64,000 nt of DNA from Chloroflexota bacterium (lineage in GTDB: Bacteria; Chloroflexota; Anaerolineae; Anaerolineales; Villigracilaceae): NCBI GenBank assembly GCA_016213105.1, contig JACRBN010000025.1, positions 372,001-436,000 on the forward strand. Direction: 5' to 3'. The notes beneath the pieces were generated by a model that searched no databases, was not told the origin of the DNA, and saw nothing but the letters and a program-made list of their open reading frames with translations. This document shows, piece after piece, positions 22,507 to 34,371 of the stretch (positions are counted from its first letter, which is position 1; every line of letters starts with the position of its first letter). A program made the translations under genes and the position numbers.

Positions 22507-22508
22507 AG

Positions 22509-22582
22509 TGGGCGCAGAGGGACTCGAACCCCCGACCTTCTCTGTGTAAGAGAGACGCTCTAACCAACTGAGCTATGCGCCC
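22509..22582 (-). tRNA. tRNA-Val (anticodon UAC)
   Basis: Minus-strand cloverleaf with acceptor GGGCGCA/TGCGCCC, D-arm GCTCAGTTGGTTAGAGC, anticodon loop CTTACAC and T-loop TTCGAGT. All stems pair. The discriminator is A and no CCA is encoded. Confidence 0.95.
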
Positions 22583-22628
22583 CGGGTGGGCAACATCCTA
22601 TTCGATTGTGGGCGCAGCCCTAAAGGGT

Positions 22629-22703
22629 GCTGCGCGAAGGGACTCGAACCCCCCGACCTTCTCTGTGTAAGAGAGACGCTCCAACCAACTGAGCTACCTG
22701 TGC
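22629..22703 (-). pseudogene. Decayed duplicate of tRNA-Val (UAC)
   Basis: The D-arm, anticodon arm (CTTACAC loop) and T-loop are almost identical to the tRNA at 22509. The acceptor strands (GCACAGG and CGCGCAG) no longer pair, and one extra G sits before the T-arm. It looks like a tandem duplicate that lost function. Confidence 0.7.
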
Positions 22704-32755: not shown

Positions 32756-33376
32756 CTATTCCACCCGTTGAGCGGAATCCGCTTTGAGCCTCTCGATGAT
32801 CTGCAAAAAGACCTCGTATGGCTGCGCGCCGACCACAGCATAACGATTGTTCATCACGTAGGTTGGCACGCCCTGCACGCCGATGCGCTGGGCCTCGTTC
32901 ACCTGCGCCTGGATGAGAGCCGTGTATTTTCCGTTTTCGACTTCGGCCTGCATCTCGTCGGCATCCAGGCCTGCCTCGCGGGCGGCCTGGCGCAGAACGT
33001 CCCAATGGCTGATATCCAGGCCTTCGGCGTAAACGCTCTGGAAGACGGCGTGATGGAATTCGAGCAGTTTGCCGTGTTCGCGCGCGTACTCGGTGGCTTC
33101 GTGCGCAAGGCGCGTGTTGTAGATGCGCTCCGTGGACTTGAACTTCAATCCGTTCGCAGCGGACATCCGGGCCAGGCGTTCCTCCGAGCCGTTGATGCGC
33201 GCCTTCTTAATATAATCAGGCAGTTCCATCCCTTCGGGCGGCGTATCGGGACGCAAATAGTACGGCCGCCAGTCGACAGCCACGTTATATTCCGCTTGCA
33301 ACCTTGCGACCACACCCTGGCCGACATAGCACCAGGGTCAGATGTAATCGGAGAAAATCGTCAGGGTGTATTCCAT
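32756..33376 (-). CDS. DsbA/FrnE-like thioredoxin-fold oxidoreductase, probable selenoprotein (Sec at residue 13)
   Basis: Thiol/selenol oxidoreductase of the DsbA superfamily, 206 aa. From ATG 33376 the frame reads MEYTLTIFSDYI, then TGA (33338-33340), then PWCYVGQGVV and onward without another stop to 32756. The family motif here is CPWC, so the TGA stands exactly at the catalytic first Cys, giving UPWC. The rest is intact: cis-Pro loop GVPTYVMNN and helical region with RMSAANGLKFKSTE. Two alternative hairpins lie immediately after the UGA. A reading that begins at GTG 33313 lacks the redox motif and is probably a misannotation. Nonsense mutation or sequencing error remains possible. Confidence 0.75.
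33307..33340 (-). promoter_or_regulatory. Candidate bacterial SECIS element after the UGA
   Basis: Hairpin A: CGGCCA pairs with UGGUCG (one G-U) around a GGGUG loop that starts 21 nt after the UGA, with G at the first loop positions, as in bacterial SECIS models. Hairpin B: CCCUGG directly after UGA pairs with CCAGGG around an 11-nt loop. A and B exclude each other. Confidence 0.55.
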
Positions 33377-33450: not shown

Positions 33451-34371
33451 TCAAGCGGGGCGCAAAGAAAGCATCACGCCGTTTTGGGACGGGTCGTGCA
33501 CGAGCAGGCCATTGTCCGTCTGGTTGGAGGGAATCCCAGCCGCGTCGACGCGGGCGATGACCTCGTCCAGCGCGGATTGGGTCGGCAGTTCCACACTGAA
33601 ATAGCGCAGGCCGACGGCATCCGGTGGAGGCGACGAGGCGCCCTCGCCCTGCCAGGTATTCAGGCCGATGTGGTGGTGGTATCCGCCCGCCGAAACGAAG
33701 GCCATGCGGAATTCGTCCACCACGCCCATCACGTCAAAGCCGAGCACGCCGTGATAAAAGTCCACGGCCTCGTGCAGGTCGCGGACGTGCAGGTGCATGT
33801 GGCCGATGCGCGTCTCGGGCGGGACTGTGGCGTCGAGTTTATCGTTCTCCTTAAGATGGCTGAAGAGGGCGTCCACGTCCAATGGCTCGCGGCCGTTGCT
33901 GAGACTGCCGTCCGCGCGGCGCGTGATGTATCGACCATCCTGGAGCGACCAACTGCCGTCCTCGGGCGACTCGGCGTACAGCTCGATGCCGTTGCCTTCC
34001 AGGTCTTCGAGGTAGGTGGTCTTGGTCATGATGTGGTCGGTCGGCGAGTTGGGATACTTCAGCACGAACAGGCGCGCCAGGGCGCGGGCCAGTTCACGCT
34101 GGCTGGGAAACAACGTGGCGAAGTGATACAGTCCCGTCACGCGGCGGTAACGTTTGAAGCCGGGTTGTTCGACCAGACGCACGATCTCGGTGGTTTCCGA
34201 GCCGAGCGTGGCCGTGTTCGCATCGCGGCGATGCAGGACGAATCCAAGCGCCTGCTGGTAGAAGGCGATCCCGTTCTCGAGACTGGCCACGGTCAGCGAA
34301 ACGTGACCGATACGGGTCGCGGGGTGGATGGAAAATTCGGTTTGGGTTTGCGTTTGTTTTTGAGTGTTCAT
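33451..34371 (-). CDS. Two-domain VOC protein, extradiol (catechol 2,3-) dioxygenase type
   Basis: 306 aa with two glyoxalase/VOC domains. The first (about 20-150) starts RIGHVSLTVASLENGIAFY, the second (about 185-300) starts RIGHMHLHVRDLHEAVDFY. Possible metal ligands are His in IGHMHLHV, the HHHIGLNTW stretch and Glu in YFSVELP. The layout resembles CatE-like dioxygenases, which cleave aromatic rings or isomerise small molecules. The 5' region (34372-34632) contains an element shared with the tetR/F420-reductase region (34480-34495), so TetR may control it. Confidence 0.8.
   Translation of the reverse strand: MNTQKQTQTQTEFSIHPATRIGHVSLTVASLENGIAFYQQALGFVLHRRDANTATLGSETTEIVRLVEQPGFKRYRRVTGLYHFATLFPSQRELARALARLFVLKYPNSPTDHIMTKTTYLEDLEGNGIELYAESPEDGSWSLQDGRYITRRADGSLSNGREPLDVDALFSHLKENDKLDATVPPETRIGHMHLHVRDLHEAVDFYHGVLGFDVMGVVDEFRMAFVSAGGYHHHIGLNTWQGEGASSPPPDAVGLRYFSVELPTQSALDEVIARVDAAGIPSNQTDNGLLVHDPSQNGVMLSLRPA

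Follow-up and report, generated by a model that had tools for sequence, protein, structure and literature searches.

Does the UGA codon that stands at the first active-site position of a DsbA-like gene in a Chloroflexota genome end the protein, or is it read as selenocysteine? The gene lies on the minus strand of a 64,000-nt contig segment (the window), and its frame runs from ATG 33376 to TAG 32758-32756, the sole interruption being a TGA at 33340-33338 (Table 1). A preliminary description of the locus had claimed that this codon replaces exactly the first Cys of a CPWC motif in an otherwise open frame, and our translation agrees: the read-through product is 206 aa long, has the N-terminus MEYTLTIFSDYI-U-PWCYVGQ, and carries U13-P-W-C16 (UPWC) in place of CPWC. 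Apart from the residue specified by the UGA, Cys16 is the sole Cys-type residue of the protein.

Table 1. Features of the locus, in window coordinates
Feature	Position	Strand	Basis or remark
Two-domain VOC protein (glyoxalase/extradiol dioxygenase superfamily)	33451..34371	minus	Upstream, 74 bp away; ordinary TGA stop
Candidate FrnE/DsbA-like selenoprotein gene	32756..33376	minus	Translation, Pfam, FrnE structure matches by sequence and fold
UGA codon 13, predicted to be read as selenocysteine	33338..33340	minus	Translation; codon counts in homologous loci
Resolving Cys16 codon, TGC	33329..33331	minus	Cys in 68/68 loci
Predicted SECIS hairpin CGGCCA-GGGUG-UGGUCG, 6 bp, loop 33317-33313	33307..33323	minus	Pairing; synonymous constraint
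GTG, expected start for a standard gene caller (185-aa ORF)	33311..33313	minus	Next in-frame start; begins inside SECIS loop

A conserved UGA in the active site of a FrnE-like gene

The remainder of the fold is intact, as had been proposed. The Pfam DSBA model (PF01323) matches residues 4-194 with 138 bits against a cut-off of 25.6, and a sequence comparison with solved chains ranks FrnE from Deinococcus radiodurans and SCO1869 from Streptomyces coelicolor as the nearest. A structure model computed from the window protein and 26 relatives, with Cys substituted for Sec, has a mean pLDDT of 94.6 and places a strand at residues 3-9 and a helix from residue 14, right after the UGA position. The top Foldseek match is FrnE 5co3 (E 2.4e-16, TM 0.85 on the query); lower matches include YjbH, HCCA isomerase and kappa glutathione transferases. 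None of the NCBIfam models reached its cut-off with the window protein. NF041057, the Rcas_1661 family thioredoxin-like (seleno)lipoprotein, whose name we take to point to a Chloroflexota genome, is likewise a thioredoxin-like (seleno)protein; it was rejected as the family, its match being 48.8 bits (cut-off, 190) and confined to residues 90-196 in the C-terminal half.

An order-level search covered 301 genomes and gave matches in 251. For codon counts we used 68 loci from 65 genomes, comprising 30 fetched automatically (L019-L048) and 38 chosen from the listed matches for covering the N-terminal part; listed matches to the C-terminal half only, and a second G011 copy at its contig's far end, were left out. 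The site codon is TGA in 49 of these loci, TGC in 17 and TGT in 2, so relatives do not uniformly carry Cys there, while the second Cys (C16), which the preliminary description had noted as kept, is retained in every one. Among named genome records, the best 80 of 351 relatives gave TGA in 65 and TGC in 14, one being cut off before the site; this set overlaps the 68 loci, and many of the genomes are identical. Most of the best 80 are labelled Anaerolineales, Anaerolineae or Chloroflexi, the nearest being a Chloroflexi groundwater assembly (L087, 84%), which makes an Anaerolineales bacterium the most likely source of the window. Single matches carry the labels Kiritimatiellae, Peptococcaceae, Thermoleophilia, Acidobacteria and Planctomycetota, and binning errors may account for some of them; two Myxococcus strains have Cys forms. 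The in-frame TGA is conserved far beyond chance, and a base-call error is excluded because relatives mostly carry TGA, not Cys, at the site.

The position of start codons bears on a different reading, in which a decayed or truncated gene, with a genuine stop or a sequencing error at the UGA, yields just the 185-aa piece from GTG 33313. The ORF from this GTG exists, and UGA is a normal stop here: TGA ends three of the four neighbouring genes checked (those for the VOC protein, adenosine deaminase and mevalonate kinase; the UbiA gene ends with TAA). However, a start at GTG 33313 would hide the active site, as had been pointed out; it would remove the whole of it along with the first strand, and this is what gene calling from the next start would do to such an enzyme. 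In 101 of 114 TGA rows the nearest upstream start codon precedes the TGA by 12 or 13 codons, and in 103 of the 114 the next in-frame start is a GTG nine codons past the UGA, in the region of the SECIS loop (overlapping sets in both counts); the GTG recurs because a Val codon there falls within the SECIS. With the TGA kept, and the frame continuing past it, in separately assembled genomes, we regard truncation as exceedingly improbable.

Selenocysteine genes and a hairpin downstream of the UGA

The preliminary description had found no sel genes in the window and had suggested a search of the rest of the genome. That search, in an assembly with a completeness of 97.55% (the tool's figure), returned the complete set on contigs other than that of the window: selA (527 bits), selB (326 bits) and selD (351 bits), all over curated cut-offs, and a tRNA-Sec (anticodon TCA) that scores above its cut-off at 70.4 bits, on which ARAGORN agrees. 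The selD gene of this genome (L017, G000:C2:28955-29887) has an in-frame TGA of its own, in SLSACAG-U-ASKLS, and is likely itself a selenoprotein gene.

By hand count, selA was over the cut-off in 45 of 47 genomes with the UGA form versus 6 of 18 with Cys forms only. This association is partly phylogenetic, since selA is common in the order (241 of 301 genomes) and in the window's own family, where G278 is the only genome listed without it, and since 8 of the 18 Cys-only genomes belong to one genus. Two members of the family, G230 and G146, have the Cys form with selA still present; in these genomes the gene's move away from Sec was not accompanied by loss of selA.

A suppressor or reassigned tRNA might instead read the UGA as Cys or Trp. 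Homologues do have Cys at the site, and decoding as Cys would yield a functional CPWC protein, but the genome holds a complete Sec set and neighbouring genes are still terminated by UGA. A further argument against such decoding comes from the RNA that follows the codon.

The hairpin downstream of the UGA spans offsets 17-33 from the first UGA base. The preliminary description had placed a loop starting with G 21 nt after the UGA; the G-starting loop stands, but the spacing of this five-base loop is 20 nt. A second hairpin, proposed to use the first bases after the UGA, did not hold up, as it needs the third base of codon 14, which is variable (CCC, CCG, CCA, CCT). The bSECIS model, in the passage of a review that sets it out, calls for a loop of 3-9 nt with G in the first two loop positions, a stem of 4-16 bp, a distance of 16-37 nt from the UGA and an energy of -7.5 kcal/mol or lower (PMC13188914). 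The window hairpin has a 5-nt loop (GGGUG), a 6-bp stem and a 20-nt spacing, all within these ranges. Its folding energy is -7.2 kcal/mol for the 17-nt hairpin alone and -9.2 for a 24-nt stretch that contains it, and the energy term of the model depends on the folded length, which that passage does not give (PMC13188914).

Folded alone, the sequence of the window gene after the UGA has this second hairpin as its minimum-energy fold (z about -1), so the case for a SECIS is one of comparison. The second hairpin was rejected as the element, as relatives do not keep it. Rfam at gathering level returned two tRNAs in the window and nothing else; these are two tandem tRNA-Val genes at 22508-22703, both with a TAC anticodon, scoring 40.4 and 74.5 bits.

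Among 38 full-length UGA orthologues, codons 17-23 for the same residue are identical in 93% of comparisons, versus 50% (sd 14%) across 169 codons further downstream. Of the gene's seven-codon windows, each of the four that score best overlaps codons 17-23. In what we regard as the strongest test, with 38 UGA and 4 Cys rows, synonymous differences between UGA-UGA pairs were 0.065 in codons 17-23 versus 0.508 outside, whereas UGA-Cys pairs (0.561 versus 0.573) and Cys-Cys pairs (0.600 versus 0.610) differed as much inside as outside. In these comparisons, the constraint on codons 17-23 goes with the UGA. The same bases encode a conserved YVGQGVV stretch, which could favour a constraint at the protein level or an overlapping element other than a SECIS. 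However, the measure counts synonymous codons only, Cys orthologues that encode the same residues do so with freely varying codons in this stretch, and a distant UGA clade has different bases with a comparable hairpin; we give this explanation almost no credence.

Pairing follows the codon as well. In the close clade, 6-7 of 7 pairs form in all 40 UGA members (6 in the window) and 3-4 of 7 in all 6 Cys members. Energies of the 17-nt hairpin are -5.2 or lower in 105 of 105 UGA rows, versus -5 or lower in 1 of 22 Cys rows (two overlapping sets). The distant clade, UPWCFMAE/UPWCFLAE, has the hairpin CGAGUCC-GGUCU-GGACUCG, whose loop is, we believe, that of E. coli fdhF; here all 6 UGA rows form 6-7 of 7 pairs, both Cys rows form 3-4, and in one member (L077) a C-G pair is flipped to G-C. 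In the named-record set, one Cys row (L159) has 5 pairs and the two Myxococcus Cys rows have 6. Covariation analysis found 96.9% of cells paired and one pair with a double (compensatory) change, with 24 of 500 shuffles as high; this signal is thin because the helix hardly varies. The preliminary description had asked for conserved structure after the UGA, and structure is indeed conserved, with the constraint released where the codon is Cys. A hairpin constrained only when the codon is UGA is what SelB-dependent decoding predicts, and we therefore consider decoding as Cys or Trp highly improbable. We judge it almost certain, from the sequence, genome and fold evidence together, that the gene encodes a selenoprotein with Sec as residue 13 of a FrnE-type enzyme of DsbA fold.

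The Sec/Cys label requires at least 9 changes on a tree of 104 proteins, and 6 among the 85 rows with a scorable hairpin. In a phylogeny-aware sign test, underpowered with its 6 independent pairs, codon and hairpin changed together in 4-5 of the 6 and in the contrary sense in none (p 0.06-0.13). The clade is a natural experiment in which replacement of UGA by a Cys codon has usually freed the RNA element from selection, and has done so repeatedly across the tree. One locus (L158, an Anaerolineaceae UBA2260 record) has TGC at codon 13 and yet forms 7 of 7 hairpin pairs, and its sister on the tree has UGA; it has the appearance of a recent switch from Sec to Cys whose RNA element has yet to decay.

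Other UGA-containing genes of the DsbA family were seen in passing. A distant one (L079, G160:C68), with FHDTV-UPFC-RIGK, likewise has TGA at this site, and its genome contains a close orthologue of the window gene as well; read by eye, the distant gene carries a hairpin TGCAAC-GGTC-GTTGCA with the loop 34 nt downstream, and it is probably a second, separate DsbA-type selenoprotein. Another UGA clade, UPWCYLIA (L075 and L082, in G049 and G009), has an identical GCCTCCAGTTTGGATCGGCT after the UGA in both members, possibly a further SECIS type.

Known relatives and a proposed reaction

We take COG2761 to correspond to FrnE. Selenoproteins of this general kind are on record in the excerpts of four accounts. 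A Sargasso Sea study of 2005 listed a "DsbA-like protein, COG2761" with UXXC and 9 sequences among its new families (PMC1088965), the GOS study of 2008 listed DsbA 1 (PF01323, UxxC) with 63 sequences (PMC2398784), a survey of 2016 gave "DsbA-like protein" alongside the numbers 41 and 45 (PMC5029168), and a review of 2026 named "DsbA-like protein form 1, PF01323, UxxC" (PMC13188914). By domain and motif, as far as these descriptions go, the window protein falls within this published family (COG2761/PF01323, UxxC), with which it shares the PF01323 fold, a UxxC motif that begins with Sec, a SECIS-like hairpin downstream and widespread Cys homologues. Thus, of the "probable new selenoprotein" first proposed, the selenoprotein is supported but "new" is not. 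What is new is a well-sampled, unlabelled Anaerolineales clade, its repeated Sec/Cys switching and its neighbourhood; the excerpts of those accounts mention neither the clade nor the neighbourhood, and we found no description of either in the portions of the open-licence PMC literature that were consulted.

The best match by both sequence and fold is FrnE of D. radiodurans (DR_0659; PDB 5co3, 5cp1, 5cnw). In the excerpted text on this protein, it is a predicted cytoplasmic member of the DsbA family with CP(W/F)C, acts as a cytoplasmic disulfide reductase, and has a C-terminal CXXXXC proposed to regenerate the active site, a motif found in many FrnE proteins but not all (PMC8945050). Unlike it, the window protein would have Sec for the first Cys and is without the C-terminal CXXXXC, no Cys following residue 16; it would therefore be reset by another reductant or a low-molecular-weight thiol.

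On the proposed mechanism, SelB loaded with Sec-tRNA(Sec) would recognise the hairpin that closely follows the UGA, and residue 13 would be inserted as selenocysteine to give a single selenol/thiol pair, U13-P-W-C16. Proteins of the DsbA and thioredoxin folds use the first CxxC residue as an exposed nucleophile of low pKa, and the second resolves the mixed disulfide. By analogy, the exposed nucleophile would here be Sec13, attacking a disulfide or some other electrophilic substrate, and the intermediate would be resolved by Cys16; Sec at the first position should speed both nucleophilic attack and release. The 12 residues ahead of the active site are too few for a signal peptide, and the enzyme would most likely act in the cytoplasm. 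Its activity may be that of a thiol/disulfide oxidoreductase, probably a reductase like FrnE of Deinococcus.

Gene neighbourhood

The role of the DsbA-like selenoprotein family is described as largely uncharacterised in the excerpt of the 2026 review (PMC13188914), and a recurrent neighbourhood would offer it a testable function. Next to the window gene stands the VOC gene. The best named families for its product, HpaD and catechol 2,3-dioxygenase (extradiol dioxygenases), were all far below cut-off, and no solved relative was found for it at E 0.001. Neighbourhoods were counted over 80 named-record loci (the best 80 of 351 relatives). Within the fetched flanks of up to 3 kb, a VOC homologue occurs in 19 of the 80 and is absent there from 61; it is on the same strand in all 19, upstream in some loci and downstream in others. 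DoxX proteins turned up in 12 of the 80 loci and PF17648 "Luciferase domain" proteins in 14, while 3 of the 80 have an esterase that matches MhqD weakly, at 39 bits against a cut-off of 325. These last three come from more distant relatives: none was found in L087, L088, L094, L102 and L103, the nearest VOC-bearing loci, or in the window. In one of the distant loci (L156), the gene order is FrnE (Cys form), DoxX, PF17648, VOC, esterase.

In Bacillus and Staphylococcus, the quinone-stress regulons include ring-cleavage dioxygenases and the MhqD esterase, and the thiol-dependent dioxygenases there are said to cleave quinone-thiol adducts, according to the excerpted text of one account (PMC6798810). 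The neighbourhoods of the orthologues resemble mhqRED and mhqNOP in having a VOC protein of the dioxygenase superfamily, a DoxX protein and an MhqD-like esterase in some loci; they differ in that matches to the named families lie far below cut-offs and that the window has only the VOC gene of the set. MhqP is presumably a DoxX protein, and to our knowledge the known mhq operons contain no DsbA/FrnE gene.

The neighbours hint at a role for the Sec-containing FrnE in quinone or electrophile defence, and the enzyme might be used under quinone/electrophile or thiol stress. A more specific version, which we hold to be unlikely though worth stating, is that in Anaerolineales the Sec-containing FrnE and a ring-cleaving dioxygenase of the VOC type work together, either removing quinone-thiol adducts or restoring thiols that quinones have attacked; the DoxX protein, the PF17648 protein and the MhqD-like esterase would, with the same reservation, be partners in some lineages. 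If true, it would attach a concrete physiological role to this family of DsbA-like selenoproteins. A second gene of the DsbA family was also observed near the Cys-form FrnE in three loci (L157, 4286-4933; L159, 4607-5248; L154, 2813-3460), and in L157 it adjoins the VOC gene.
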